A stretch of 35,241 bases of DNA from Spirochaetaceae bacterium (GTDB lineage: Bacteria; Spirochaetota; Spirochaetia; Treponematales; Rectinemataceae), in assembly GCA_026418115.1 (NCBI GenBank), contig JAOABY010000019.1, positions 1 through 35,241 on the forward strand, read 5' to 3'. How positions within the stretch are numbered: the first letter of the stretch is position 1; every line of letters begins with the position of its first letter. Under the pieces are notes generated by a model, which saw nothing but the letters and a program-made list of their open reading frames with translations, had not been told where the DNA came from and made no database searches. The translations under genes and the position numbers were made by a program. Shown here in pieces: positions 1,852 to 29,466 of this stretch.

Positions 1852-1855
1852 ACCA

Positions 1856-2554
1856 TCATTTCATCTGTGACAGAAGCTTTGCTGCATCCTTGTTGCCCAT
1901 TGCTGCAGCCTTCTCAAGATCTGCCCGAGCCTGCGCTGGGCGGTTGGTGTCCTTGTAGAGCTGGCCTCGGTAGTACCATGCGCTGCTGTGTGCAGCAGGA
2001 TTGCTGCCGAACAGTGCGATGTACTCATCAAACAGCGCTTCTGCCTTCTTGCGATCCTGGCCCGCAATGGCGGGAAGTACCTGCCAGAACCGACCCAGGG
2101 AGATGATGGGGCCGCCTGTATCATAGGTCTTGTCGAGGCGATATGCGGTTTCAAATGCCTGCTGGGTCTTGCCCTTGAGTCCCTCTGCGATTGCCTTTAT
2201 GACGCTCACGCAGTCGGAATAGGTACCCACACAGGTACCGTACCAGTACCAGCCTTCTACGCCGGCAGGATTGAGTCTGGTAGCGATTTCGCCATACTTC
2301 ATGCCTTCCCGTGCCGCCACTCGTGCCGTATCCTTCCAGCCTGGAATCTCTTCGGTTACAAGGTAATCGCCATAGAGACGGGCAGCCTTTGCAGCCTGCC
2401 AGTTGAGCACATAGTCCTGAGGAGCTGCTGCCGCAAGGCGCACAGCCTCTTCATAGGCAGCTTTCAGTTCAGCGACGCCTGCCTCGGCAAGGGCAGGCAT
2501 TGCCACTATGGCGAGCATCAGAAGAGCCAGCAGCGCCCTGTATGTTCTTGTCAT
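1856..2554 (-). CDS. Secreted TPR-like protein, function unknown
   Basis: The 232-residue protein opens with a clear Sec signal peptide (positive MTRTYR, a hydrophobic stretch to about residue 20, and an ALA cleavage motif before EAG). The rest is alpha-helical and Ala-rich, with TPR-like helix pairs. The best pairs are near residues 165-230, where WYYRGQLYKDTNRPAQARAD is followed by a typical second helix. A central segment rich in Tyr/Trp/Gly and Cys (about 100-125) is not a standard repeat. I infer a periplasmic protein-interaction role and recognise no specific family. The start is supported by GGGAGGAC 7 bases upstream. A weak promoter and a perfect palindrome lie just upstream. The gene may be monocistronic, since the upstream lipoprotein gene ends in its own terminator. 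Confidence 0.8.
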   Translation of the reverse strand: MTRTYRALLALLMLAIVAMPALAEAGVAELKAAYEEAVRLAAAAPQDYVLNWQAAKAARLYGDYLVTEEIPGWKDTARVAAREGMKYGEIATRLNPAGVEGWYWYGTCVGTYSDCVSVIKAIAEGLKGKTQQAFETAYRLDKTYDTGGPIISLGRFWQVLPAIAGQDRKKAEALFDEYIALFGSNPAAHSSAWYYRGQLYKDTNRPAQARADLEKAAAMGNKDAAKLLSQMK

Positions 2555-2569
2555 GAAAATGTCCTCCCT

Positions 2570-2584
2570 GGATGAACTTCATCC
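2570..2584. promoter_or_regulatory. 15-bp perfect palindrome, operator candidate
   Basis: GGATGAA-C-TTCATCC is a perfect dyad that overlaps the putative -10 element (2581-2586) and the expected transcription start of the secreted TPR-like gene. It lies directly upstream of that gene's ribosome-binding site. This position suits a repressor operator or a small 5' hairpin. The regulator is unknown. Confidence 0.35.
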
Positions 2585-2609
2585 TATGTGAAGAGAGGCG
2601 CAGATGCAA
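2581..2609 (-). promoter_or_regulatory. Weak putative promoter of the TPR-like gene
   Basis: On the minus strand TTGCAT (2604-2609), a 17-base spacer and TAGGAT (2581-2586) form a sub-consensus promoter. The expected start is near 2574, about 20 bases before the gene's ATG. Its position between the upstream terminator and the gene supports it; the hexamers are only partial matches. Confidence 0.3.
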
Positions 2610-2633
2610 TATGGCCGGATGCAGAGAAAAACA

Positions 2634-2662
2634 AGGGGAAACGGCCCCGGACCGTTTCCCCT
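2634..2662 (-). terminator. Intrinsic terminator after the lipoprotein gene
   Basis: A perfect 11-bp stem (AGGGGAAACGG at 2652-2662 read on the minus strand, pairing with CCGTTTCCCCT at 2634-2644) has a 7-nt loop. Read on the minus strand it is followed by TGTTTTTCTC, a proper U-tract. This is the clearest intrinsic terminator in the window and separates the lipoprotein gene from the TPR-like gene. Confidence 0.88.
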
Positions 2663-2690
2663 GACGGGTTCATCCTGTTCTATCTTGCTG

Positions 2691-3068
2691 TCAGCGGGAA
2701 AGAGCGTTCCCTGAAACAGACACGTAGCCCCAGTTCAGCAACCCACCGGTGACGCTGCTGATGAGAAGCCCAATTATATCGAATCCATACTTGATCTCGA
2801 CATTCTCGGCTGCATTGGCTCCCCTCGACGAAAGTTCAGGGTCAATCAGCTTGTCGAGGTTTTCGTAAGGTTTGGTGATGGGGAAGATATAGGGGCTTAT
2901 GATGCTGATGGCTGCCGCCCTGTTCTCAAAAGTTCCTCTTGATGTGCCGGTCATCGAACCGTAGGCGAGTTTTCCATTGCTTGCCTTGAAGGTAGTCGCA
3001 CAGGAGCCCAGCAGAAGAGGCAGGATTAGGAGAGCCAGCACGAGCACTGCAATTCCTTTCTTTTTCAT
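2691..3068 (-). CDS. Small lipoprotein, function unknown
   Basis: The 125-residue protein has a type II signal: MKKK, a hydrophobic run, then LLLGSC with the lipidated Cys at residue 23. The mature part is about 100 residues, is rich in Gly/Ser/Ile/Tyr and ends in a short hydrophobic Gly-rich stretch (DIIGLLISSVTGGLLNWGYV). I do not recognise a family with confidence; it recalls short bacterial lipoproteins of the Bor/TRL size class, which is only an impression. The ATG at 3068 is chosen because GGAGG precedes it by about 7 bases. It is followed by a strong terminator and lies 54 bases downstream of the outer-membrane-like gene, so the two may be cotranscribed. Confidence 0.82.
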   Translation of the reverse strand: MKKKGIAVLVLALLILPLLLGSCATTFKASNGKLAYGSMTGTSRGTFENRAAAISIISPYIFPITKPYENLDKLIDPELSSRGANAAENVEIKYGFDIIGLLISSVTGGLLNWGYVSVSGNALSR

Positions 3069-3122
3069 ACGCACCTCCATTTGTTTACTGTGTATGCAAT
3101 CATCCCACAGGATGTCACCGCC

Positions 3123-3689
3123 TCATTTCAGGATATAGGCTCCTCCCATACTCTCCAGTCGCCAGACGAATCCTCTCCGGCTGTCATAGCCCGCACCAAA
3201 AGCCAAGCCGCCCAGCGCAGTCAGTGGCACCAGCAGCCGCAGCGAGGGCTCGAAGCTCACATCCACTCCACTTGAAGAGAAATATGCATGGCCATCTGCA
3301 TACAGATACACACCGATCTTCCTCGAGCGAGCTTCGGAGAGAAGCTCAAACAACGGCAGTTCCATACCCAGCGTCAGCATGAAGGGGCGGGATGGCCACC
3401 AGCCGATTCCTGCACGCGCTCTCAGAGGTAATCCTCCTGTCAGAGCGCGATTGCCGTACGATCCAGTGAGCGCAAGCGAATCAACTGCCCTCCAGGAGTC
3501 GGCTATCGAACCCTGCCAGACGCCTCGCAATTCCCAGTTGATGCCCACAAACGATGATGACCAGATATCATTTTCCGCAAAAACCGGAACCATGCCATAC
3601 AGAAGGACGCAAACCAGGAGTATCTTGCACGGCAGACGGCAATCGATCGCAAAATTATTCACATTTTTATTGTAGGTTGGCCGACTCAT
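3123..3689 (-). CDS. Putative small outer-membrane beta-barrel protein
   Basis: The N-terminus contains a hydrophobic Sec signal (CKILLVCVLLYG...PVFA, then END). The mature part of about 150 residues alternates polar and hydrophobic or aromatic residues in short Gly-bounded strands, as expected for a small beta-barrel or envelope beta-sandwich. No family is recognised. The start is uncertain. The ATG at 3689 gives 188 residues with a long 38-residue signal region. A consensus promoter (3669-3697) would start transcription near 3662, exactly at an in-frame GTG, which would give a leaderless 179-residue form with a normal-length signal peptide. The gene diverges from recQ and precedes the lipoprotein gene by 54 bases, suggesting a linked envelope function. 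Confidence 0.7.
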   Translation of the reverse strand: MSRPTYNKNVNNFAIDCRLPCKILLVCVLLYGMVPVFAENDIWSSSFVGINWELRGVWQGSIADSWRAVDSLALTGSYGNRALTGGLPLRARAGIGWWPSRPFMLTLGMELPLFELLSEARSRKIGVYLYADGHAYFSSSGVDVSFEPSLRLLVPLTALGGLAFGAGYDSRRGFVWRLESMGGAYILK

Positions 3690-3697
3690 GATGTCAA
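3669..3697 (-). promoter_or_regulatory. Consensus sigma70 promoter
   Basis: On the minus strand TTGACA (3692-3697), a spacer of exactly 17 bases and TACAAT (3669-3674) form a near-perfect vegetative promoter. The expected start, 7 bases past the -10, falls at 3662. It lies across the first codons of the longest reading of the outer-membrane-like gene and across the longest 5' extension of divergent recQ, arguing that both true starts lie further in. Confidence 0.75.
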
Positions 3698-3843
3698 ACC
3701 GAAAAGCGTTTCCATACAGGAGCGCTCCTCGATCCAGTTTTGAAGCGTCGGCTGTGGCGGTTGCATCAGGATCCATGATGGGTACTGCTATTGGTAGTGA
3801 GGCCCCGACCTCTGTCTCTCAGATGGAGCAAAGGAAGAGCTCG

Positions 3844-5523: not shown

Positions 5524-7140
5524 ATGATCCGCTTCGAAAATCTCGATACCCTGCCCGCATTCAGCAGGCTGCGTGCCGCTGCTCCGGTAAAGCTCTCTGA
5601 TGTACTTACTCCAGAACGAATTCGGACATGGTGGATCGATCATGCCGCAGATATGCGATATTGCTATGCGTGCGCCCCAGTGGACGAGAAGGTCCTCGAT
5701 CTCCTGCAGGAGCTTGCAGATGAAAGTCAGCTGATCGACAAATATCGAGCGCTCCTTGATGGTGCGGTCATGAACACGGGCGAGCAGCGAATGGTACTCC
5801 ATCACCTCGCACGAGGAAGGCTCGGAAAACCTGTCGTATGGCAGGGCGAGGACAAGGAAGCATTCTACACACGCGAGAGGCGCAAGTCTGCGGATCTGGC
5901 ACGCAGAGTCCATACGGGTGAACTGCGCGGCTCCACAGGACTGAAATTCGCCAATGTAGTACAGATAGGCATCGGCGGTTCCGATCTTGGTCCCCGGGCA
6001 GCCTGCATTGCGCTGTCACGTTGGGCGCAGGCCCATGGCCGGGCATTCCTCAAGCCATGGTTCATTTCGAATGTCGACCCCGATGATGCCGATGCGGTGC
6101 TCGGCGCCCTCAATCTGGCAGAGAGCATATTCATTCTGGTATCCAAGAGCGGCACCACGCAGGAGACCCTTGCCAACGAAATGCTGGTCCGCTCCCGCCT
6201 GCAGGAAGCAGGTTTGGATCCTGACAGACACATGGTGGCAGTCACCAGCGCGACGAGCCCTCTGGCAGGCAATCCCCATTATCTGGAAAGCATCTACATC
6301 GATGACTTCATCGGAGGAAGATACTCGACATCGAGCGCGGTCGGGGGCGTCATCATCTCTCTTGCCTTCGGGCCTGAGACTTTTGAGGAATTCCTGCAGG
6401 GCGCGCATGAGGCCGACAAGCTTGCACTCGAACCATCCCTGCGGCAAAATCCTGTCCTTCTCGATGCCATGATCGGTCTCTATGAGCGATCCATCCTGGA
6501 CATGCCCTGCACCGCGGTACTGCCCTATGCCGAACCTCTGGCACGATTCCCTGCGCATCTCCAGCAATTGGATATGGAATCCAACGGCAAGTCAGTCACG
6601 AGAGACGGCAGACCTCTGCCCTACCGAACCGGTCCTGTGGTGTTTGGCGAACCTGGCACAAATGGCCAGCATTCCTTCTATCAGCTGCTGCATCAGGGAA
6701 CGGACCGTATCCCCTTGCAGTTCATCGGATTCCTGGAGAATCAGCTCTCGCGCGACATGGAATCGGAGGGCAGCAGCTCCCGGAGCAAGCTTCTCGCAAA
6801 CCTGATGGCCCAGATGCTCGCATTCGCGATTGGCAAGAAGGATAGCGATCCCAATAAGACATTCGAGGGCAATCGACCATCCACGCTGATCCTGGGAAAA
6901 AGGCTTGGGCCGCAGCAGCTTGGTGCACTCTTCTCTCACTATGAAAACAAAGTCATGTTCCAGGGCTTTGCATGGAACATCAATTCCTTCGACCAGGAAG
7001 GCGTGCAGCTCGGCAAGGTACTGGCCGGCAAGGCGCTCCATGGCATGCGCACAGGCTCCTCGACAGGCGACAGCCTGCTTGATGCGCTGCTTGCTGCCAT
7101 ACTGGGACAGGGCAGCAGCACCCATGGAGGCAAGGTTTGA
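5524..7140 (+). CDS. pgi: Glucose-6-phosphate isomerase
   Basis: This cytosolic glycolytic enzyme interconverts glucose-6-phosphate and fructose-6-phosphate. Of 538 residues, IGIGGSDLGPRA (148-159) and SKSGTTQET (207-215) form the phosphate-binding sites of the SIS domains. GGRYSTSSAVG, the ESNGKSVTRDG segment, GQHSFYQLLHQGTDRIP and QEGVQLGK carry the conserved catalytic Arg, Glu, His and Lys environments. The ATG at 5524 follows AGAGGT by about 6 bases. It begins 30 bases after recQ and its TGA overlaps the murG TTG start. Fructose-6-phosphate is the entry point to UDP-GlcNAc, the MurG donor, which is one possible reason for the pairing with murG (inference). Confidence 0.97.
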   Translation: MIRFENLDTLPAFSRLRAAAPVKLSDVLTPERIRTWWIDHAADMRYCYACAPVDEKVLDLLQELADESQLIDKYRALLDGAVMNTGEQRMVLHHLARGRLGKPVVWQGEDKEAFYTRERRKSADLARRVHTGELRGSTGLKFANVVQIGIGGSDLGPRAACIALSRWAQAHGRAFLKPWFISNVDPDDADAVLGALNLAESIFILVSKSGTTQETLANEMLVRSRLQEAGLDPDRHMVAVTSATSPLAGNPHYLESIYIDDFIGGRYSTSSAVGGVIISLAFGPETFEEFLQGAHEADKLALEPSLRQNPVLLDAMIGLYERSILDMPCTAVLPYAEPLARFPAHLQQLDMESNGKSVTRDGRPLPYRTGPVVFGEPGTNGQHSFYQLLHQGTDRIPLQFIGFLENQLSRDMESEGSSSRSKLLANLMAQMLAFAIGKKDSDPNKTFEGNRPSTLILGKRLGPQQLGALFSHYENKVMFQGFAWNINSFDQEGVQLGKVLAGKALHGMRTGSSTGDSLLDALLAAILGQGSSTHGGKV

Positions 7141-8372
7141 GCGCCGCCAAGCCCGACCTGAAGGACACTGAGCACGACCTCCACGCCAGGATCTGTCTGG
7201 CTTTTACGGGGGGCGGCACAGGCGGCCATATCTACCCCGGACTGGCCGTCATAGAGGCCTTGCGCCGGGCTGGCTTCCAGGGTCGTATTGTATGGCTGGG
7301 TTCCGAAAAGGAACTCGATCGACGCATTGTGACCGAAGCGGGAATAGAGTACTTTGCCATCCCCTCCGGAAAATTCCGCCGCTCGCTGGATCTGCGCAAT
7401 CTCTCGGACCTGACCCGCATTGCCGCGGGGTATTTTGCCTCGAGAAGCATTCTCCGACAGATCGCGCCTGCCCTGCTTTTCTCAAAGGGTGGCTACGTGA
7501 GTGTGCCGCCCTGTTGTGCGGCAGCCTCACTGGGTATACCAGTATTCACGCACGAGTCGGATACTACGCCCGGCCTTGCCACACGCCTGAATGCCAGAGT
7601 AGCGGAAAAAATACTGACAAGCTGGGAAGGCACCGCCACCTTCCTGCCAGAAGGTTACCGGCACAAGGTCATCAGGACCGGCAACCCGGTGCGCCGTTCC
7701 CTGTTCGAAGGAGATGCGAACCGTGGCAGGACACTGCTCGGTATCCCTGATGCTATACCTGTCGTGCTGGTGCTGGGAGGAAGTCAGGGTGCACAGGAAG
7801 TCAACAGGCTCGTGCTGGATGCACTGCCGCTCCTCGAAGGCAGGTGCTTCGTGGTGCACCAGACAGGTACGGAGCATTATCAGGAGGTAGTCGCAACCGC
7901 ACGCAGCAGGGGTGTCAGCGACCAATGGTACAGAGCCATGCCCTACATTGGCAGCGAACTGCCAGACATCATGGCCGCGGCATCCGTACTGGCAGGAAGA
8001 GCTGGCGCCGGTTCCGTATGGGAAGCTGCCTCACTGCTCAAGCCCATGGTGCTGGTACCTCTCTCCGGGATTGGCACGAGGGGTGATCAGGTTGAGAATG
8101 CTGCAGCAGCCCAGGCGGCCGGCGCGGCACGATCGCTCACGGGTCCGGATGTGCATCCACAGGCGTTTGCAGCTGCCGTCCTCCACTATCTCAAGGACGC
8201 TCAAGCCTATGATGCGGCACGGAATGCGTGCAGACACCTCACCGTAGTGGAGCAGGCAGGATCAGGTCATGCAGCCGATTTCATTGCGAACCTCATCCTT
8301 GCGAGAATTGGCTGGAAGGATAAAAGCCTGCGGCCATCAGGCATGAAGGAGCAATCACATGAACGTGCTTGA
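7137..8372 (+). CDS. murG: MurG, lipid II-forming GlcNAc transferase
   Basis: MurG transfers GlcNAc from UDP-GlcNAc to lipid I at the cytoplasmic face of the membrane, giving lipid II. Of 411 residues, GGGTGGHIYPG (25-35) is the N-domain glycine loop, and GGSQGAQEVN and GRAGAGSVWEA mark the C-terminal GT-B domain. The start is a TTG whose bases overlap the pgi stop (TTGA, 4-base overlap), with TGGAGG 6 bases upstream; this implies translational coupling to pgi. The first 18 residues are polar and not conserved. The protein is slightly longer than the usual 355-370 residues, from this N-terminal part and a tail past residue 390. MurF and MraY, which act before it, are on the opposite strand in the dcw operon. 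Confidence 0.96.
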   Translation: MSAAKPDLKDTEHDLHARICLAFTGGGTGGHIYPGLAVIEALRRAGFQGRIVWLGSEKELDRRIVTEAGIEYFAIPSGKFRRSLDLRNLSDLTRIAAGYFASRSILRQIAPALLFSKGGYVSVPPCCAAASLGIPVFTHESDTTPGLATRLNARVAEKILTSWEGTATFLPEGYRHKVIRTGNPVRRSLFEGDANRGRTLLGIPDAIPVVLVLGGSQGAQEVNRLVLDALPLLEGRCFVVHQTGTEHYQEVVATARSRGVSDQWYRAMPYIGSELPDIMAAASVLAGRAGAGSVWEAASLLKPMVLVPLSGIGTRGDQVENAAAAQAAGAARSLTGPDVHPQAFAAAVLHYLKDAQAYDAARNACRHLTVVEQAGSGHAADFIANLILARIGWKDKSLRPSGMKEQSHERA

Positions 8373-20033: not shown

Positions 20034-20909
20034 TCAATCCCTCGGAAAGTGACGCCGGTGCCCCTCACCCAGCGCCGCCTCGTCGATATGGGTGTAGATC
20101 TGGGTCGTGGCAATGTCGGAATGGCCCAGCAACTCCTGTACGGTACGGAGGTCCGCGCCTCCCGCCAGCAGATGTGTGGCAAAACTGTGCCTGAAGGTAT
20201 GCACCTTAGCCTGGACACCGGTTTTTATCCTGATGTCGCTGAAACGCTTCCAGATACCTTTGCGGGAAATCCCTTTGCCTTCCTGATTCAGAAACACGTA
20301 CTTGCTGCGGTTTCCTTTCTCCAGAAGCGGCCTTGCCTCGGCAAGATAGCGCCTGAGCCACCATGATGCAGTCTCGCCGAAAGGCACAAGCCGTTCCTTC
20401 TTGCGTTTGCCTACGATACGTACCAGGCGCTCCTCGAGATACAGCCTCTCGAAGGTGAGCGTCGCCGCCTCGGAAATTCTCAGTCCGCAGGAATAGATGA
20501 GCTCGAAGAGCGCGCGGTCCCGCAGACCATTGGGCGTGGTGATATCGATCGCATCCAGCACCCTCTCCACTTCGTCGGGAGGCAGCACTTCCGGCAGGTT
20601 CCTCTCTCGCTTCGGGGTTCTGATCTGGGCGGAAGGATCATCATCACGCAGTTTTTCCAGCCTTAAAAAACGGTAGAAGGCATGCACGCCCGCAATGATC
20701 CGGGCGATGGTGGTGTGCTGCAAGCCTTGCTGGCCACGCTGCACCAGATACGAGAGAATGTCTTCCGATCGAGCATCGAGCAGGGTTCTCCCCGACTGTA
20801 CGAGGAATGCATCCAGTTGCTCGATTTCGCGAACATATGCTTCGGCTGTAGCCGCTGAGCGGCGGCGCACCGTGAGCAGATAGGATCGGAACCTTCTCTC
20901 AAGATCCAT
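20034..20909 (-). CDS. xerD: Tyrosine recombinase XerD
   Basis: This is the partner of XerC in dimer resolution at the division septum, activated by the FtsK translocase (not in this window). It has 291 residues with the catalytic set R144, K171, H237, R240 ([15 protein letters not shown]), H263 and Y272. The core-binding domain occupies about 1-95. The ATG at 20909 overlaps the ftsZ TGA by one base (TGATG), with GGAGG 9 bases upstream; a GTG immediately before it is an equal alternative. I assign D rather than C from the sequence feel and from xerC being adjacent to hslV; the two could be swapped. Confidence 0.9.
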   Translation of the reverse strand: MDLERRFRSYLLTVRRRSAATAEAYVREIEQLDAFLVQSGRTLLDARSEDILSYLVQRGQQGLQHTTIARIIAGVHAFYRFLRLEKLRDDDPSAQIRTPKRERNLPEVLPPDEVERVLDAIDITTPNGLRDRALFELIYSCGLRISEAATLTFERLYLEERLVRIVGKRKKERLVPFGETASWWLRRYLAEARPLLEKGNRSKYVFLNQEGKGISRKGIWKRFSDIRIKTGVQAKVHTFRHSFATHLLAGGADLRTVQELLGHSDIATTQIYTHIDEAALGEGHRRHFPRD

Positions 20910-22147
20910 CACTGCCTGCCTCCGAAGTTATCTGAATTCATGCGCTTGTTCCGCAGCACGGTAGGTATGTCCCACTCGTCGGTCTCGGCAGCGGGATCAT
21001 AGGCATTTCTGACCGGTGTCTCGCGCTGGTTCTGAGTCTGCTTCTGTTCGGTTCTGGCAGGCTCTTCATCACGGTAGGGCCATTCACCAGGATTGATGTA
21101 GTCCCCCATCTTCGATGCAATACCCGATGCCTGGGAAACCGGCCTGGAGGCTGCCTTCGGCTCGGTGGCGGGTCTGGCCTTGGCTGCGCCGAAGCCTGTG
21201 GCAATAACCGTGACTCGTACTTCATCCTTCAGCGAAGTATCGGTGACGATGCCGGCGATGATGTGCGCATCCTCTGCTGCCCTGGAGGTAATGAGATCAA
21301 TGACCTCCTGATACTCGAGCAGGCTGAAGTCCTCGCCGCAGGTGACATTGACGAGTATGTTGCGTGCTCCTTCGATGCGTGCATCGTCGAGAAGGGGATT
21401 GGCGATGGCTCTCTCCGCCGCTTCCTGAGCCCGGTTCTCACCGCTCGCCACGCCAATGCCCATGATGGCATCCCCCTGCCCCTCCATGACGGTGCGAACA
21501 TCCGCAAAATCGATGTTGATGTCGCCAGCCAGCGTAATGAGATCGGAAATACCCTGCACACCCTGGCGCAAGACCTCATCTGCAATGCGGAATGCCTCCC
21601 GCAAGGGCGTTTTCTTGTCCACCACCTTGAGCAGGTTCTGGTTCGGAATCACTATGACCGTGTCGGCAGCCTGCTTGAGTTTTGCAAACCCCTCTTCTGC
21701 GATCCGGTTCACCACTTTGCCTTCGAACGTGAAAGGCTTGGTCACCACAGCCACGGTAAGCGCCCCGAGATCCCGTGCGGTCTGTGCGATGACCGGTGCG
21801 GAACCTGTGCCTGTGCCGCCGCCGAGCCCTGCGGTCACAAACACCATGTCTGCGCCCCTCAGCGCCTGCTCGATCTTATCCCTGTCCTCAAGCGCAGCCT
21901 TTTCGCCTATGTCAGGCTTGCCGCCGGCACCGAGCCCCTTGGTAATCTTGGTGCCAATGCCGAGCCTGATTTCGGCCTTGGACCTGTTCAGGTCCTGCAG
22001 GTCGGTGTTCACCGCGATGAACTGTACATTCTTGAGACCAGCCTGAATCATGCGGTTGACTGCATTGGAACCGCCTCCACCCGTGCCGATGACCTTGATC
22101 ACCGTCGGGTTTGCCAATCCGTTCTCTTCGACAATTTCAAATGCCAT
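20909..22147 (-). CDS. ftsZ: Cell-division GTPase FtsZ
   Basis: FtsZ is the tubulin-like protein that polymerises into the Z ring. Of 412 residues, the GTPase loop GGGTGTGS is at 109-116, the N-terminal [15 protein letters not shown] nucleotide-binding start is intact, and the T7-loop region near [10 protein letters not shown] is present. After a variable linker rich in Gln/Arg/Pro comes the conserved C-terminal peptide [13 protein letters not shown] (390-402), which binds FtsA; it has Val where Phe or Leu is common and is followed by ten more residues. The ATG at 22147 has AGGAGG about 7 bases upstream. An in-frame ATG at 22168 lacks this. The gap to ftsA is 23 bases, the largest in the operon. 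Confidence 0.97.
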
Positions 22148-22170
22148 CGCGTTCCTCCTGGACCACATGA

Positions 22171-23409
22171 TCAGAAAAACCTGTCCTTGAACCAGCGCAG
22201 AATTCCGCCCTGAGACCTGCGCTCCCGCCTTTTCCCTTTTCTGGGAGCCGCTTCCATATGTGCAGCGATGATATCTGCTTCCATCATGGCAATGCCAACC
22301 GAAGCCGCAAAGGCCGGCGAGCGGTATGCTTCTTCCATGCCACCACAGGACACGGGATACCCCACCCGAACCGGCAGACCGAAAATTGACTGGGCGAGTT
22401 CCTCGATCTGAGGCATCTCGGCAGTGCCGCCTGTGAGTACCACGCCGGCTTTTACTCTATCCAGCATGCCGCTCTTTTCCACCCGGTCACGAGCCATCGA
22501 GAGAATTTCCTCCATCCGGGGTTGAATGATGGAAACAAGCTTGCGCCGCTCCAGTTCAGCTGGCTCCCTTGCACCAAAGGGAGGAATGATCACCGTCTCA
22601 TCCGGATCAACCGCTTCGATCCAGCAGGAGGCCGACTCTCGTTTGAGTTTTTCAGCAGTTTCCACCGGCACACTCAGCATGATGGAGATGTCTCCCGTAA
22701 CCTGACTGCCTCCGGCGGGGATTGAGGAAGTGAGGACGGGCTGGCCGTCAGAGAACACCATGATATCTGTTGTGCCTCCGCCAATATCGAGCAGCAGGCA
22801 ACCGAGTTCGCGTTCATCCTCAGAGAGCACCGAACGGGCAGCTCCCAGAATGCCGAGATAGGTGCCATCGACGTGATAACCGGCCCGGCTGACGCACTTC
22901 AGCATGTTCTGAATCGTGGTGCTGGATCCCGTGATGATGTGCATCGAACATTCAAGCCGAACTCCTGACATGTGCAGCGGGTTGCGGATATCCGGCTCAT
23001 CATCCACTTTATAGGTCTGTGGAATGGTGTGCAGAATCTGCCGTTCCATGGAAATGGACACCGCCTTGGCAGCCTCATGCACACGGGCAATATCATCCTG
23101 CGTGATCTCCCGACCCTTGCCGGTCACCGCCACCTGGCCGGTAGTATTGAAACTCTCAACATTGGCACCTGAAAGCGCCAGTGTAACTCCCTTGATATCG
23201 ATGCCGGACATCAGCTCAGCAGCCTCGAGCGCAGTGGCTATGCTCTTGAGCGTGCCTTCGATGTTGAGCACAATGCCTCTCCTGAGCCCATTCGAGGGGG
23301 CGGTGCCGATGCCGACGATCGCCAGGCGGTCTTCTTCATCGAATGTCGCAATGACCGCCTTGGTGGTGGATGTTCCTACATCCAGTGCGACAACATGCGA
23401 ATCAGCCAG
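22171..23409 (-). CDS. ftsA: Cell-division protein FtsA, apparent CTG start
   Basis: FtsA is an actin-like ATPase that tethers FtsZ to the membrane. Of 412 residues, phosphate 1 is DVGTSTTK (10-17) and phosphate 2 DIGGGTTD (208-215); a later LTGGTAEMP is the adenosine motif. The C-terminus ends with an amphipathic membrane-targeting helix ([12 protein letters not shown]). I place the start at the CTG at 23409-23407. It gives the expected N-terminus ([11 protein letters not shown]), has AGGAGG with 6-base spacing and overlaps the ftsQ end by 8 bases. No ATG, GTG or TTG lies close by in frame. ATG at 23478 would add 23 residues inside ftsQ with poorly spaced GAGGG. Gene identity is certain; the start needs proof. 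Confidence 0.95.
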
Positions 23410-24505
23410 AGACTGCCTCCTTTGTCCGGAAAATGAGTGTTCCTTCGCGGATATCGACTTCGCCGGATCTGGCACCATACCCTCTTGTACGGAGTATGTC
23501 CAGAACCGCAATGGAGAGCTTGAGTGTCGCCACACTCAGCTCAAGTGGAGCGCGAACCGCAATCCGCGAGCCCGCCGGATAGAGCACTACTTCCGGGCTA
23601 CCCTGCCCTGTCTGCACCACCTTGATTTCGGAGAAGGCCTCAAGTACTGCCGGTTCGTGTTCGAGAACCTTTGCCAGGCTCTTTGTCAGAGGGAGCAGAG
23701 CTTCAGGCAGGCGCTGTCCGGGTTGGAACGAAGAAAATCTGATGCCAGAAAGCAGAGGAATACCCCTCGCTCCCGATTCCGGATCGATGGCGGCATAGGC
23801 GACTCCCTCGGCATCCACCAGCACCAGCCTTGAGCCCATGCTACTCTGCTCCAGAATGCCAGCTACCGGCTTCCTCTCGCGGATCTCTATGGCCAGGGTG
23901 TTGGGCAGACAGCACTGGAATTTCGCCTCTGCAATGCGCGGATCCTGCAAAAGCCTGGAGGAGAGTGCCTTTGCATCGAGAGTCACCAGACTGGTGCCGT
24001 TCATATCGCCAAGCATCTTCATGATTTCCTGCTCGGTGACCGTTGCAAGTCCTTCCAGCCTTATCATGCGTACCTGCGTGAGCGCAGGAAGGCCAAATGA
24101 AAGCGCAGCGGCGAGGAGCAGCATGCAGCCGATCATCGCCAGCAGGCTGACGAGAACCCGGTGCTGGCTCCTTGCATGTGCAGGCGCTCCGTCGTCCTGC
24201 TCCTGGCGCGCCCTCTGGGCTGCAGCTGCACCTGACTGGAACAGGCGAGGATCCATCCGCAGAGGCTCGATCCGGAAACCTGTCCTGTCGCTAGTCTCAT
24301 GATGCTCGTGCTGACCGACGCCAGCCCGGTTGGCAGAAGGTTCCTTCCGGGCGGAAGGTCTTTGCCCCTGCCTGCTCTGGCGCTCATGCACCTGAGCGGC
24401 GGATCCGGAAGGTCTTGCTGTGGTGCGTTCCTCAAGTTTTACGGCATAGCTGTCGGCAATAGTGAGCATGACCCTCGGCTTCCGATCCAGCGTGGATTCA
24501 GACAT
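23402..24505 (-). CDS. ftsQ: Cell-division protein FtsQ/DivIB
   Basis: This bitopic membrane protein scaffolds the divisome with FtsL. Of 367 residues, the first 115 form an unusually long, polar, Arg/Gln/His-rich cytoplasmic tail. One membrane helix is at about 117-140, followed by a POTRA domain (about 145-215, RMIRLEGLATVTEQEI...) and the FtsQ beta domain in the periplasm. The ATG at 24505 overlaps the ftsW stop by 8 bases, and GGAGAGGAG lies upstream. The 3' end overlaps ftsA. Confidence 0.92.
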   Translation of the reverse strand: MSESTLDRKPRVMLTIADSYAVKLEERTTARPSGSAAQVHERQSRQGQRPSARKEPSANRAGVGQHEHHETSDRTGFRIEPLRMDPRLFQSGAAAAQRARQEQDDGAPAHARSQHRVLVSLLAMIGCMLLLAAALSFGLPALTQVRMIRLEGLATVTEQEIMKMLGDMNGTSLVTLDAKALSSRLLQDPRIAEAKFQCCLPNTLAIEIRERKPVAGILEQSSMGSRLVLVDAEGVAYAAIDPESGARGIPLLSGIRFSSFQPGQRLPEALLPLTKSLAKVLEHEPAVLEAFSEIKVVQTGQGSPEVVLYPAGSRIAVRAPLELSVATLKLSIAVLDILRTRGYGARSGEVDIREGTLIFRTKEAVSG

Positions 24506-25649
24506 GAGTCGCTCCTCTCCCCACCGGGTGTATGTAGATCGGTTCGAATGATGGCGCGATATGGGTTGCAGCGGTGAAATTCACGAGCAGACCGAAACAG
24601 AACGAGGTAGCAAGCACAGAAGTTCCTCCAGCCGAGAAGAAAGGCAGAGCCATGCCTGTAGTGGGTATGAGGCCCGAGACAACGGCCAGATTCACCAGCA
24701 CCTGCAGCAGAAGTGCCGAAAGGATCCCCAGACCGGCTACCCGCGGAAAATCATGAGCGTCCTTCAGCCTCTTTACCACTCTCCAGGCTATGAATGCCCA
24801 CAGGGCAAAGAACAGCACCACGCCAAGGAAGCCTGTTTCCTCTGCATAGGCAGCAAAGATGAAATCCGACTGGATTTCAGGAATTGATGCGAGCTTGTTG
24901 GTGCCCAGCCCTATGCCGGTACCGAGAAGCCCGCCTGCGCGGATTGCCCTGAGCGACTTGATCATCTGGTAGCTGGCTCCCTGCGCATGTTCCTCCGGAT
25001 TCAGATAGCCCAGTATGCGCTGGAGACGGTACTGCGAGAGGAGTACAACAATCACCGCGTACAGAGCCGCAAGCCCGCCGATATTTACAATGAAGAGGAT
25101 TTTCATGCCGGCAAACCAGAGCACCGCGAGCGCAATGGCAGCGACCAGCGCAGCCGTCGAAAAGTCGCTCTGCAACGTGATAATGAAGATCGCGCAAATG
25201 ACAAAGCCCAGGGCCGGCATGGCTGCATAGGATGACCCCTTGATCTGCTCTCTGTGCCTGTCAAGAAAGTGAGCCATGTAGAGCACCATCACAGGCTTCC
25301 AGAACTCGGAGGGCTGCAGCGTAAAACCGCCGATGCGGATCCATCTTTTTGCATTATTGATGGTGCCTCCGATGCCAGGAAGCAGCGGCAGCACCAGCAG
25401 CGCCAGAGAGCCCAGACACATTGCCGGAATCAAGGTGCGCAGCATGCTCAGCGGAAGCAGGGCGGCAACTCCAAATACCACCAGGGATAGGAGCGTGACG
25501 ATCGCCTGCTTGCCGATAACCGCAAGCGGCCCTCCATTGCGGAGCGCGAACCCGATGGAACCCGACCACAGCGAAATGAGTCCCAGCAAGGCCAGGACTG
25601 CCATGGCTGCGATGAGCTGTTTGTCGTACTCACCACCGGAGCTTCGCAT
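24498..25649 (-). CDS. ftsW: FtsW, SEDS-family septal peptidoglycan polymerase
   Basis: FtsW polymerises lipid II glycan strands at the septum together with a class B penicillin-binding protein. The 383 residues contain about ten hydrophobic helices. The SEDS signatures are visible: YAEETGFLGVVLFF and PTTGMALPFFSAGGTSVL near the C-terminus. Assignment as FtsW rather than RodA rests on its place between mraY and ftsQ. The ATG at 25649 has AGAGG about 8 bases upstream, 11 bases after the mraY stop. No ftsI-type transpeptidase gene is in the window, so its partner must be encoded elsewhere. Confidence 0.94.
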   Translation of the reverse strand: MRSSGGEYDKQLIAAMAVLALLGLISLWSGSIGFALRNGGPLAVIGKQAIVTLLSLVVFGVAALLPLSMLRTLIPAMCLGSLALLVLPLLPGIGGTINNAKRWIRIGGFTLQPSEFWKPVMVLYMAHFLDRHREQIKGSSYAAMPALGFVICAIFIITLQSDFSTAALVAAIALAVLWFAGMKILFIVNIGGLAALYAVIVVLLSQYRLQRILGYLNPEEHAQGASYQMIKSLRAIRAGGLLGTGIGLGTNKLASIPEIQSDFIFAAYAEETGFLGVVLFFALWAFIAWRVVKRLKDAHDFPRVAGLGILSALLLQVLVNLAVVSGLIPTTGMALPFFSAGGTSVLATSFCFGLLVNFTAATHIAPSFEPIYIHPVGRGATHV

Positions 25650-25660
25650 ATTGTTTCCTC

Positions 25661-26743
25661 TTACTGAATCTTGAGGGTCGACAGGGCGATGAGGGCGAAA
25701 ATCCCTCCCATGATCCAGAACCTCACTACCACCTTGGTTTCCTTCAGACCTCCAAGCTCGAAGTGATGATGCAGCGGGGCCATCCTGAAGAGGCGCTTCC
25801 CTTTGGTGAGCTTGAAATACAGCACCTGCAGCATTACCGAGCCGAGTTCGGCGACAAACATGCCACCGATGAGCAGCAGCAGTATTTCCTTCTTCACCAT
25901 GAGCGAGAGCACGCCGAGCACTCCGCCCAGCGAAAGCGAGCCGGCATCGCCCATGAACACTTCTGCGGGATGGGCATTAAACCACAGAAAACCGGTACAC
26001 GCGCCAAGCAGGGCCAGATTGAACACAGTCAGTTCGCTCGCCTGCTTGATGTAGGGAATGCCAAGATACACTGACCAGTCGGCACGACCAGTCACATACG
26101 TAAGAATGGAAAATGCAATCAGCGCGAAGATCACCAGACCGGTGGCCAGACCATCGAGGCCATCGGTAATGTTCACGGCATTTGACCAGGCAGAGATATA
26201 GATGACTGCAAGCGGGATCCACCAGAGGCCGACATCGACCAGGTGGTTTTTCAGGAAAGGCACATAGATCTTGGTGACACTCGCCCCTCCGAACCGGTAG
26301 ATGCCATACACCACTGCCAGAGAGACAACAAACTGCAGCACCAGCTTCTGAATGGGAGACAGGCCATCCGGGCTGCGTTTCTTTATTTTCAGGTAATCAT
26401 CGGCTGCCCCGATGAGCCCGAATCCGATCAGGGCTGCCAGCGCAATCCAGGAATAGGCGCTTTTGACATCCACCCAGAGCACCACCGAAATGCTGACTGC
26501 GGCTATGATGAGTATGCCGCCCATGGTCGGTGTCCCTGTCTTGGAGAGATGGGTCTGTGGACCATCTGTGCGCACGGCCTGCCCGAACTTGAGCACCCGG
26601 AGCTTCTCGATCACAAACGGGCCTGCGAGATAGCAGATAATTAGTGCAGTCACCGCTGCATACGCCGACCGGAAGGTCAGATAGCGAAAAATATTGAAGG
26701 GAGTGAAATACCGCACCAGCGGCAGAAAGAGTTCACGAAGCAT
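25661..26743 (-). CDS. mraY: MraY, phospho-MurNAc-pentapeptide transferase
   Basis: MraY makes lipid I from UDP-MurNAc-pentapeptide and undecaprenyl phosphate in the inner membrane. Of 360 residues, about ten are transmembrane helices. The catalytic motifs are intact: the Asp pair D115/D116 (GAADDYLKIKKR), NITDGLDGLA (191-200), FMGDAGSL (263-270) and the HHH loop (325-327, PLHHHFELGG). The ATG at 26743 follows GGGAGG and overlaps the end of murF by 11 bases. Its product is the substrate of MurG, encoded at 7137-8372 on the other strand. Confidence 0.97.
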   Translation of the reverse strand: MLRELFLPLVRYFTPFNIFRYLTFRSAYAAVTALIICYLAGPFVIEKLRVLKFGQAVRTDGPQTHLSKTGTPTMGGILIIAAVSISVVLWVDVKSAYSWIALAALIGFGLIGAADDYLKIKKRSPDGLSPIQKLVLQFVVSLAVVYGIYRFGGASVTKIYVPFLKNHLVDVGLWWIPLAVIYISAWSNAVNITDGLDGLATGLVIFALIAFSILTYVTGRADWSVYLGIPYIKQASELTVFNLALLGACTGFLWFNAHPAEVFMGDAGSLSLGGVLGVLSLMVKKEILLLLIGGMFVAELGSVMLQVLYFKLTKGKRLFRMAPLHHHFELGGLKETKVVVRFWIMGGIFALIALSTLKIQ

Positions 26744-28193
26744 GGGATCCTCCCTGAGAGCTGTTTGTCATGTCGATGAGGCCACGAGATGCGAGCGCTT
26801 CGGTGAGTCGCTCGAGGGCCATCCCTCTCGAGCCCTTGATCAGCACTAAATCTCCATCCTGTACTGCGTCACAGACAGCTTCGATGAGCGCCTGCATGTC
26901 GGTGCAGGCAACCAGCCTCATGGTTCCCGACTCCTGTGCCTGGAGACCGGCAGCTGCAGCAGCCATATCCTCGCCAAAGGCAAAGACTGCAGCAGGGTTG
27001 ATGGCAAAAGCCTGCCCGAGCACTCTGCGATGCGCTTCTCCGGCTTCTTCTCCAAGCTCCAGCATGGAGCCGAGCACCAGCATTTTCCTGCCCTCCCAGG
27101 GAAGGGAGGCAACAAGCTCAAGCGCCGCAGCCATGCTCTCCGGATTTGCGTTGTAGCAATCCTGCAGTACGGTGATCCGTCCGGTTCTCAATTCAGACCT
27201 TCCGAACAGCGGCCTGACAGATGCCAAACCGCGTGCAACCGCCTGAGGATCGAGCGCAAGCGCGTCTGCTACGGAAAGCGCCGCACAGGCGTTGAGCAGA
27301 TTGTGTTCGCCAGGAAGTGGAAACTGCAAAGACTGCCCCTTCCAGACCAGCTGCCAGCCGTGGATGCCAAGGCTTACCGCCTGCTCCAATCCTCTGGTAC
27401 TCTTCGGACCGAATTCCAGAATGGTCCCCTGCACATCCCTGACAAGGAAATCCCGGTATTCATCATTCTCCCAGATAAAGCCGCGCTGGCTGCCTGTGAA
27501 CCGCGAGAAAATCTTCTTCTTTTCTTCAGCAATGGCCTGACGTGAACCAAGCATGCCAAGATGTGCGGTTCCTATGTTGGTAATGACCGCCATATCAGGC
27601 TCGTACATTGCAACAAGCTCATCCATCTCGCCCTTGCGATTCATGCCCATTTCAAATACGCCGATGCGATGTTCAGGCCGGAGCGTGAACATCGCGAGAG
27701 CCAGACCGATATCGCTGTTCAGATTACCCTCGTTCATGGCAACGGTGTTGTCGGGGTAACAGGCGCGAAGTATGGCTCCAATGCATTCCTTGGTGGTAGT
27801 CTTGCCGCTCGAACCCGTCACGCCGATGCGGAAAAGGTTCATGCGGCGCCTGTATGCTCGTGCCGCAGCCTGGAGACCCGAGAGAGTAGATTCCACCAGA
27901 AGGAGGCAGGCGCGATCCATGCACCCCGCATTGCGGAACGCGGCGAGCGCCACATCTTTCTGGGCCATCTCGGCCATAACCGCTGCCGCTCCTGCCCTGC
28001 ATGCATCCTCGATGAACCTGTGGCCATCTACCCGTGCTCCACGGAGCGCCACAAAGAGCGCGCCTTCGCGCACCAGCCGCGAATCGGTGACCACCTCCAT
28101 AATGGGTGCATCAAGATTGCCCTTGCAGGCTGCGCCAATCATGCCTCCAAGCTCTCCCGCTGCAAAGAGGATGTGCTGCCTGTTCTGCGCCAT
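26733..28193 (-). CDS. murF: MurF, UDP-MurNAc-tripeptide D-Ala-D-Ala ligase
   Basis: MurF adds D-Ala-D-Ala to UDP-MurNAc-tripeptide, completing the pentapeptide in the cytosol. It has 486 residues: an N-terminal UMag-binding domain (VVTDSRLVREGALFVALRG), the ATP loop GVTGSSGKTTTKE (124-136), NEGNLNSDIGL and EMGMNRKGEM typical of MurF, and a C-terminal domain with YNANPESM. The ATG at 28193 has GGAGG 6 bases upstream and overlaps the ftsL TGA by one base. murE, murD and murC are not in this cluster. Confidence 0.96.
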   Translation of the reverse strand: MAQNRQHILFAAGELGGMIGAACKGNLDAPIMEVVTDSRLVREGALFVALRGARVDGHRFIEDACRAGAAAVMAEMAQKDVALAAFRNAGCMDRACLLLVESTLSGLQAAARAYRRRMNLFRIGVTGSSGKTTTKECIGAILRACYPDNTVAMNEGNLNSDIGLALAMFTLRPEHRIGVFEMGMNRKGEMDELVAMYEPDMAVITNIGTAHLGMLGSRQAIAEEKKKIFSRFTGSQRGFIWENDEYRDFLVRDVQGTILEFGPKSTRGLEQAVSLGIHGWQLVWKGQSLQFPLPGEHNLLNACAALSVADALALDPQAVARGLASVRPLFGRSELRTGRITVLQDCYNANPESMAAALELVASLPWEGRKMLVLGSMLELGEEAGEAHRRVLGQAFAINPAAVFAFGEDMAAAAAGLQAQESGTMRLVACTDMQALIEAVCDAVQDGDLVLIKGSRGMALERLTEALASRGLIDMTNSSQGGSHAS

Positions 28194-28510
28194 CACTGTC
28201 CTCCCCCCGGCTGAACCTTGCTGCCTGGCTTCTGATCCCTGCTTTCCTCTCCCGGCATGATCACAATGTATTTCTCTGGTTCGGCAATCTTGAGATTGCT
28301 GCGTGCTGCAGCCTTGTCGACTGCTTCGGTATTGCCATACCGCGCAATCGTTGCATCCAGCTCCTTGCCCTGTTTGATCAGATCGAGTTCCTTGGCCTCA
28401 AGATGCTTTACTTCCATCCTGAGCTCCGTGTATCTGGCAGTCTGCGCTACCAGCATTGCAAGCAGCATGCAGGCAGCAACGGCGAAGATCCAGAAACCCC
28501 GTGCATTCAT
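28193..28510 (-). CDS. ftsL: FtsL-like cell-division protein
   Basis: This 105-residue bitopic protein has one membrane helix (about 5-23, FWIFAVAACMLLAMLVA). A periplasmic coiled coil follows (about 28-60, heptad-like Leu/Ile/Val positions in LRMEVKHLEAKELDLIKQG), and then a short segment ending in a polar Pro/Gly-rich tail. Sequence identity in FtsL is always low, so the call rests on topology plus position between rsmH and murF. It would bridge FtsQ to FtsW and its transpeptidase. It overlaps the rsmH end by 4 bases (ATGA). Confidence 0.85.
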   Translation of the reverse strand: MNARGFWIFAVAACMLLAMLVAQTARYTELRMEVKHLEAKELDLIKQGKELDATIARYGNTEAVDKAAARSNLKIAEPEKYIVIMPGEESRDQKPGSKVQPGGGQ

Positions 28511-29466
28511 GACCCTGCTCCTTCCAGGGATCCGGCAGTTGTCTCCCTGGCTTGTACCGCCCGCAGTTTCGCAGATCTCGAAGGTGGATTGGAGGCGATT
28601 TCAGCCTCTCCCGGTTCACGCGGTTTTTTCCACAGCAGCTCGACCCTTCCTGCTTTTGCAGCCTCGGCAAAGGCATGCTTCACAATTCTGTCTTCAAGCG
28701 AATGAAAGCTTATGACGGCCAGAATGCCGCCAGGTGCGAGCAGATCCGGCGCAAGCCGCATTGCCCGCTCCACTCTTCCCAGCTCATCATTCACGGCAAT
28801 TCTGAGCGCCTGGAAAGTCCTGGTCGCAGGATGGATGCGGCCATGACGGTATTGCGGAGGCACTGCCCCGCCTATGATCCATGCCAGGCGACTTGCAGTC
28901 TGGATGCGCTCAGTCCGGCGTGCCTGGACGATTGCCCGTGCTATGCGTCGCGAATAGCGTTCCTCTCCATACCTGTAGATGAGGTCGGCGAGATCTTCCT
29001 CACGCCAGGAATTCACGATATCGGCAGCGCTCAGCGGAGCATCCGGAGAAAATCTCATGTCGAGCGGTTCATCAGCCGCGAGGCTGAATCCTCTGCCTGA
29101 TGCGCCAAGCTGGAACATCGAGAGCCCAAGGTCAAACAGCATGAACGAAGCATGAGGCGCAGGTGTCCGTTCCCTGAGCATGGCGAGCGCTTCATCATAG
29201 TAGGCGTTGATGATTTCAAGGCGTGAGGCAAAGGCCTGCAGCCTCTCCGCAGACCTGGTGCAGGCTTCGGGATCAGCATCGATACCGATATAGCGTACCG
29301 ATGGCAGAGCCTCGAGCAGCGCTGCGGCGTGACCACCTGCTCCAAGCGTTGCGTCGATGACAAGTGAAGGCGAAGTCAGCGCAGATGCCAGGGAAAGCAC
29401 TTCATCGAGCATGACGGGAACGTGCCGTACGCCACGGGATGTACCATCTTCCTGCCAACCATCCAT
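28507..29466 (-). CDS. rsmH: RsmH (MraW), 16S rRNA C1402 N4-methyltransferase
   Basis: RsmH methylates the base of C1402 in the ribosomal decoding centre using S-adenosylmethionine. Of 319 residues, HVPVML (15-20), the SAM loop DATLGAGGHAA (38-48), GIDADPEA (61-68), GFSLAADEPLDMRF and SFHSLEDRIVKH are family signatures. The ATG at 29466 has GAGGAG upstream and lies 10 bases after the mraZ stop. It is cotranscribed with mraZ, as in most bacteria. Confidence 0.97.
   Translation of the reverse strand: MDGWQEDGTSRGVRHVPVMLDEVLSLASALTSPSLVIDATLGAGGHAAALLEALPSVRYIGIDADPEACTRSAERLQAFASRLEIINAYYDEALAMLRERTPAPHASFMLFDLGLSMFQLGASGRGFSLAADEPLDMRFSPDAPLSAADIVNSWREEDLADLIYRYGEERYSRRIARAIVQARRTERIQTASRLAWIIGGAVPPQYRHGRIHPATRTFQALRIAVNDELGRVERAMRLAPDLLAPGGILAVISFHSLEDRIVKHAFAEAAKAGRVELLWKKPREPGEAEIASNPPSRSAKLRAVQARETTAGSLEGAGS

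Follow-up and report, generated by a model that had tools for sequence, protein, structure and literature searches.

A candidate barrel-lipoprotein gene pair and a separate TatT-like gene in an nth-recQ insertion of a spirochaete genome

Background

The lipoprotein RcsF of Escherichia coli offers a precedent for a lipoprotein that works through beta-barrels and monitors LPS (PMC4942254, in excerpt), and it is reported to bind the periplasmic domain of OmpA and not the barrel (PMC7553776, in excerpt). According to the available part of one account, DUF1471, RcsF, YbjQ, DUF74 and an archaeal selenium-binding protein share one fold, and the RcsF domain carries disulfide-forming cysteines (PMC4092069). 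Other described proteins of comparable kind are the Lambda Bor (PF06291) and LIC20211-family (NF047814) lipoproteins, and the eight-stranded barrels of OmpA/OprF, NspA and OmpX/Ail. How spirochaete lipoproteins cross the outer membrane, or are retained there, is debated (PMC11784454, in excerpt). TatT of T. pallidum, a TPR protein, is described as having a hydrophobic pore and as partnering a solute-binding protein (PMC5812351, in excerpt).

Here we report on three genes, A, B and C, in a 35,241-nt stretch of DNA (the window) that is part of a 2.17-Mb spirochaete genome (G000). Two of them form a putative barrel-lipoprotein unit, C-B, for which we found no curated family, and the third is a TatT-like gene that is distributed independently of the pair. 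Within the portions of the literature returned by a narrow search on RcsF with YbjQ and on spirochaetes with RcsF, no description of the pair was found.

Results and discussion

Three genes inserted between nth and recQ

Genes A, B and C are real, and they constitute an insertion of about 1.9 kb in a conserved junction between nth and recQ (1852..3774, no strand; recQ starts at 3688 or 3775). Together they fill the nth-recQ gap, which is 1.84-1.92 kb wide in the window; in all 15 relatives with both genes readable, nth and recQ are neighbours, their BLAST hit ends lying 56 to 371 nt apart. This survey found nth in 25 of 26 genomes and fetched 19 loci beyond the window's, of which L052, L054, L056 and L058 were left out for having no recQ match on the fetched stretch. 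Because the gap itself was unusable at L055 and L057, where the frame runs on, distances were taken between BLAST hit ends. A first-pass annotation of the window had described an envelope island of three minus-strand genes between housekeeping genes, and both the reading frames and the setting are borne out.

Two genomes that carry C-B (G015 and G032) nevertheless keep nth and recQ side by side (L048 and L057), so that the pair must be located elsewhere in them. Repeats flanking the insertion are absent, the longest shared word being 7 (shuffles: mean 6.7, max 10), and mobile-element scars were ruled out on the same comparison. The window as a whole contains no tRNA, no Rfam match above gathering score and no tandem repeat above a score of 50. 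At positions 7137-8372 and 20909-29466 of the window, a murG-like gene is seen to stand apart from a cell-division cluster with ftsZ-, ftsA-, ftsQ-, ftsW-, mraY-, murF- and mraW-like members, all of these names coming from frame reading.

The genes are transcribed in the order C, B and, past the terminator, A. Gene C (3123..3662, minus strand) is predicted to encode an exported eight-stranded outer-membrane beta-barrel with about 151 aa in the mature protein; its signal peptide, read by eye, ends in VFA, and its candidate starts are the GTG at 3662 and the ATG at 3689. Gene B (2691..3068, minus strand) would encode a lipoprotein of 103 aa when mature, with GGAGGT preceding the ATG at 3068 and a lipobox, LGSC, whose lipid cysteine codon is 3002-3000. 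The signal-peptide region is kept in the homologues of both B and C. Gene A (1856..2554, minus strand; 232 aa) encodes a putative periplasmic TatT-like TPR protein, again with a signal peptide recognised by eye. The localisations originally proposed (outer-membrane-like, lipoprotein and periplasmic TPR) thus agree with the predicted barrel of C, the lipobox of B and the profile and structure matches of A described below.

A consensus promoter, a strong internal terminator and a palindromic site had also been described, and all three are present in the DNA. The promoter-like sequence TTGACA-17-TACAAT (3669..3697, minus strand) fits the consensus at 11 of 12 positions, but RNA would start from it at about 3662, on the GTG of C, giving a near-leaderless transcript, and a start at the ATG at 3689 would place the promoter inside the gene; as the best promoter starts RNA at the presumed start codon, both starts of C are kept as candidates. 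The intrinsic terminator (2634..2662, minus strand; 13 pairs, a loop of 3 and a T-rich tail) stands 3' of B and 5' of A, and would therefore end the C-B transcript and set A apart. The perfect 15-nt palindrome, GGATGAAcTTCATCC (2570..2584, no strand), lies in the leader of A but was not seen, by eye, in the A leaders of nine relatives (about 110 nt each). Promoter-like sites number 4, compared with a mean of 1.5 (sd 1.3) in shuffles, and terminator-like sites also 4, compared with 2.4 (sd 1.6); these counts are so little above chance that we place weight only on the two best sites.

Gene A is separate from the C-B pair

The three products had been regarded as a plausible barrel-lipoprotein-TPR complex, and they are all exported, consecutive and contained in one insertion. 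Their distribution makes a single complex of A, B and C extremely improbable: among 39 genomes, 19 have a strong A and four have C-B, but the window's genome is the only one with both. In the phylum sample, the remaining C hosts show no A match at E 1e-10, the terminator parts A from C-B, and on the fetched stretches of 18 other A loci there is no otc, nth, recQ, B or C. Co-occurrence of the three genes in relatives, named beforehand as the point on which the proposal could be refuted, thus breaks down, and the trio as a conserved set is refuted; what stands of it is the C-B unit, present at seven of seven loci. The best explanation, which taken as a whole we regard as evenly balanced, is that the insertion holds two independent units: C-B, and a stand-alone gene A native to the window's spirochaete family.

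The 19 strong orthologues of A include the window's own, and those outside the window show 61-76% identity; a match in G010 (E 7.8e-4, 25% identity, internal stop) was not counted. Mean column identity in the alignment of the 19 members is 75%, so gene A is well conserved. It is absent from G015, G024 and G032, the three other C-B genomes among the 39, and matches at E 1e-10 in 14 of 392 phylum genomes, the three other C hosts of that sample not being among the 14; these co-occurrence figures cover genomes other than that of L026. At eight loci of the same genus, the neighbours of A are dppC-, deoC-, dipeptidase- or RpiR-like genes (names by eye). The copy in the window is the only strong one in its genome and lies away from these genus-typical neighbours, suggesting that A was relocated or that an old copy was lost. 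We have no explanation for A sharing one insertion with C-B.

Gene A is best called TatT-like. Its resemblance to TatT, the T component of TPAT/TRAP systems, lies in a partial match to the Pfam profile (PF16811; profile positions 78-199 of 263), but the score of 23.7 bits is below the gathering score of 26.5. TatT is matched at E <=0.01 by 16 of the 19 A-family members, the listed A-family places scoring 18.5-23 bits with none above the cut-off. Other proteins do exceed the TatT cut-off in 20 of the 39 genomes, including the strong-A genomes G011, G012, G016, G019 and G023. On both counts we rejected gene A as a true TatT. Nor were TRAP P and M genes found beside it in the window, where A adjoins nth, C-B and recQ; the neighbour check covered the window and, of the 18 other A loci, the eight from the same genus. 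A match to the uncharacterised TPR structure 8g52 (E 8e-7) agrees with the TPR assignment, and gene A could possibly be a periplasmic binder of hydrophobic ligands. The earlier statement that none of the three proteins could be placed in a family holds for B and C, which remain below the Pfam and NCBIfam cut-offs, but needs amending for A in view of its weak likeness to TatT.

Linkage and distribution of C and B

At all seven loci found, C lies 5' of B on the same strand, with 25-112 nt between the C stop and the likeliest B start. These loci are the window, L025 (G015), L024 (G024), L023 (G032), L022 (G049), L026 and L074 (G408), and they span at least three spirochaete families. The homologues of B and C used for the profiles match by construction; the independent finds are G049, detected through C alone, and L026 and G408, detected through B alone, and in each of them the other gene adjoins. 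Among the 39 relatives, C occurs in four and B in five, namely the same four, strongly, and G033, where it is weak and solo. Searches for C gave five hosts among 291 genomes of the order and four among 392 of the phylum; B adjoins C in every one, and a close B (E < 1e-20) is present in the same four phylum genomes as C.

The coupling of C and B is thus well supported, and their linkage is shown to be independent of gene A. As the linkage holds at every locus found, C and B are likely to work together. A scan for B in 84,980 species genomes, limited to two peptide patterns, returned four loci, all in spirochaete MAGs; since it missed G049 and G408, the rarity of the pair rests on the searches of the order and phylum. 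In the MAG G015, the B frame is lost near the C-terminus on a short contig (L012:1420-1836), which may be a real break or an assembly error; the broken frame was kept in alignments A1, A3 and A5 and trimmed before the break from A7 on.

Gene C as a predicted outer-membrane barrel

An AlphaFold2 model of C built with five homologues has eight strands (pLDDT 86.6, pTM 0.79), and with good confidence C is predicted to be an outer-membrane barrel closed by eight amphipathic strands. Its best structural match in VIA-align is OprF (Z 15.1, rmsd 2.0, 120 residues aligned), followed by a de novo barrel, a Thermus outer-membrane protein, NspA (12.8), OmpA (12.7) and PagL (12.4). The OprF, OmpA and NspA rows of C thus lie at Z 12-15, while the Foldseek hits of B are insignificant (best E 0.11). 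C resembles the barrel domain of OmpA/OprF, NspA and OmpX/Ail in strand number and approximate size; it differs from them in having neither a Pfam match above cut-off nor a periplasmic OmpA domain, and in being found, in the searches made, only in spirochaetes.

Seven C homologues share 14 invariant columns, with no His or Ser among them, and 12 of the 14 residues, including R53, R55, E73, Y91 and D95, fall on the less hydrophobic strand parity, a test that is partly circular as the invariant residues enter the hydrophobicity mean. The parity suggests a lumen network, and networks of this sort occur in small OmpA-type barrels. Sequence comparisons gave no Pfam or NCBIfam match for C above cut-off, no OmpA family among the Pfam matches of six C homologues up to E 10, and nothing better than E 0.64 for the C profile against PDB sequences. 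A relationship to RecJ_C was rejected (E 0.012-0.021; 15.6-16.4 bits, with 30 needed), the matched stretch being modelled as barrel strands.

Genes for outer-membrane lipids lie beside two of the seven pairs in the stretches read, with L023 read to 1.5 kb and the neighbours annotated in part by family search: an MlaD protein and an ABC auxiliary lipoprotein gene adjoin the pair in G408 (L074), and an acyltransferase gene stands directly 5' of C in G049. With the PagL match, a weaker one to PagP (Z 10.0) and the conserved polar residues on the lumen parity, these neighbours would suit a C that is a lipid-modifying enzyme of the PagL/PagP type with B as its chaperone or regulator. We consider this unlikely, however, because the eight-stranded fold is common to many non-enzymes that score equally high and because the seven homologues have no invariant His or Ser. 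The active site of PagL is a His-Ser-Glu triad.

Gene B and its relatives

The model of B is poor (pLDDT 60.6), and only with low confidence do we propose an RcsF/YbjQ-type fold. The top seven VIA rows are DUF74, YbjQ (twice), STM0082 of Salmonella (2jna), chain B of an IgaA entry and RcsF (twice), with Z values of 5.5-7.1, a range that VIA calls common. We take 2jna to be SrfN, a DUF1471 protein, and chain B of the IgaA entry to be RcsF, the latter from its residue range. Only one of the six pair-type B proteins has a Pfam match, to the selenium-binding family (E 0.11).

Against 30 YbjQ proteins, 25 of which have the motif under test, the profile built from 15 B relatives reaches 25.6, and 150 column shuffles give a mean of 11.0 and a maximum of 18.8; the seven pair-type B proteins alone score 21.5 (shuffle maximum 20.2), and the accepted YbjQ-RcsF pair scores 23.0 in the same comparison. 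By contrast, single proteins of the B family reach at most 16.6 with a YbjQ profile made from 23 of the 30 proteins, selected by the motif under test, and the best unrelated protein reaches 21.0; with the B profile, the best unrelated protein scores 20.2. B compared with RcsF alone is at chance (11.7). RcsF (PF16358) hits nothing in G000, with E. coli recovered as a control, and YbjQ_1 (PF01906) has no match in G000 and none for B. At a limit of E 10, Pfam yields nothing for B itself, Lambda_Bor included; B also has no NCBIfam match above cut-off, and its profile finds nothing better than E 0.42 among PDB sequences.

Distant forms of B occur in seven further genomes of the phylum (E 1.6e-11 to 1.5e-5) and in G033, and no C gene was seen by eye beside them in the stretches read. 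At a limit of E 10, Lambda_Bor is matched by 8 of 15 B relatives (best 6.7e-6) and the LIC20211 family by 3 of 15 (best 6.5e-4), and one solo relative, L082, passes the Bor cut-off (26.1 vs 25 bits). The solo relatives score 26.6 in profile comparison with Bor, whereas the pair-type profile is at chance (11.4, reached by 46 of 150 shuffles), so that only the solo relatives support a kinship of B to Bor. A comparison of Bor with YbjQ is likewise at chance, and the link to Bor and that to the YbjQ fold therefore do not confirm each other. B differs from Bor and LIC20211-family lipoproteins in matching neither, and only its branch is paired with C. It is best read as a one-cysteine lipoprotein from a branch of the spirochaete Bor-like family that has diverged and is linked to C, the single cysteine, that of the lipid attachment, being the only one in all 15 aligned family members, which leaves the domain without disulfide-forming cysteines.

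Lambda, besides Bor, has a small outer-membrane protein, Lom. The Bor matches of the solo relatives, the patchy distribution of C-B and the fold class that C shares with OmpX and Ail could thus be taken to mean that the pair is phage or plasmid cargo, as lom and bor are in lambda. This is very improbable, for tblastn at E 1e-5 found neither B nor C in any phage or plasmid record, a pattern-limited scan for B hit no viral contig, and no repeat flanks the insertion; on the first two of these results we rejected such an origin for the pair. A relationship of C to Lom was rejected separately, the hhalign score of 13.4 being at chance (shuffled Lom: mean 12.5, max 21.2).

A possible role for the C-B pair

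Taken together, the C-B linkage, the lipid-gene neighbours and the RcsF precedent lead us to prefer the view that the pair makes up an accessory outer-membrane complex, with B acting through C, likely for membrane integrity or sensing, although the proposal could as easily fail as hold. C and B would be co-transcribed as an accessory operon of two genes that together specify one outer-membrane complex. C would fold into its eight-stranded barrel, and B would be lipidated and then carried to the outer membrane, where its small alpha/beta domain may be docked on the periplasmic side of C or surfaced via C assembly. The two proteins, presumably in physical contact, would then stabilise or monitor the outer membrane, giving the pair a probable role in its integrity.

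RcsF with its OMP partners would be alike in comprising an outer-membrane lipoprotein with a small alpha/beta domain that works with a beta-barrel, and RcsF is among the best structural rows of the low-scoring B model. B differs from RcsF in that its only cysteine is the lipid cysteine, its N-terminal stretch is short and the Pfam RcsF profile does not match it; its gene is also paired with that of the barrel, whereas rcsF in E. coli is flanked by trmO and metQ. That C has no periplasmic OmpA domain counts against a contact in the style of RcsF and OmpA.

Alternatively, C might be a dedicated surface-export path for B, the elusive lipoprotein flippase of spirochaetes having been proposed to be a barrel. 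The strict pairing of the genes would agree with such a function, but the lumen of an eight-stranded barrel is narrow and the low-confidence N-terminal stretch of the B model extends over only about 16 residues. We regard an export path as improbable, even though lipoprotein surfacing in spirochaetes is debated and BamA is reported to surface RcsF during OMP assembly (PMC11784454, in excerpt). A broader proposal, tentative and still rather unlikely, is that C-B is a self-contained spirochaete module that has spread as an accessory device for outer-membrane stress or for the surface. Its barrel would be the dedicated partner that delivers the lipoprotein onto the outer membrane or across it, and the module would be convergent with RcsF and its OMP partners.

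Returning to an accessory outer-membrane complex, C-B would represent a minimal barrel-plus-lipoprotein system in which contact, assembly order and topology are accessible gene by gene. Several features of the surroundings of the pair may be added. In L074:242-3339, the pair adjoins MlaD and a long gene that opens with an ABC auxiliary lipoprotein domain, in what appears to be an unusual lipid-transport cluster. At L026:2968-3636 (SKQU01000276.1), divergent from the pair, lies a gene for an exported 222-aa protein that is barrel-like by eye. A small lipoprotein gene stands beside the pair on the opposite strand at two of the seven loci (L010:2067-2399 and L024:6707-7141); the latter encodes a PEGA-domain protein, and the former is similar by eye.
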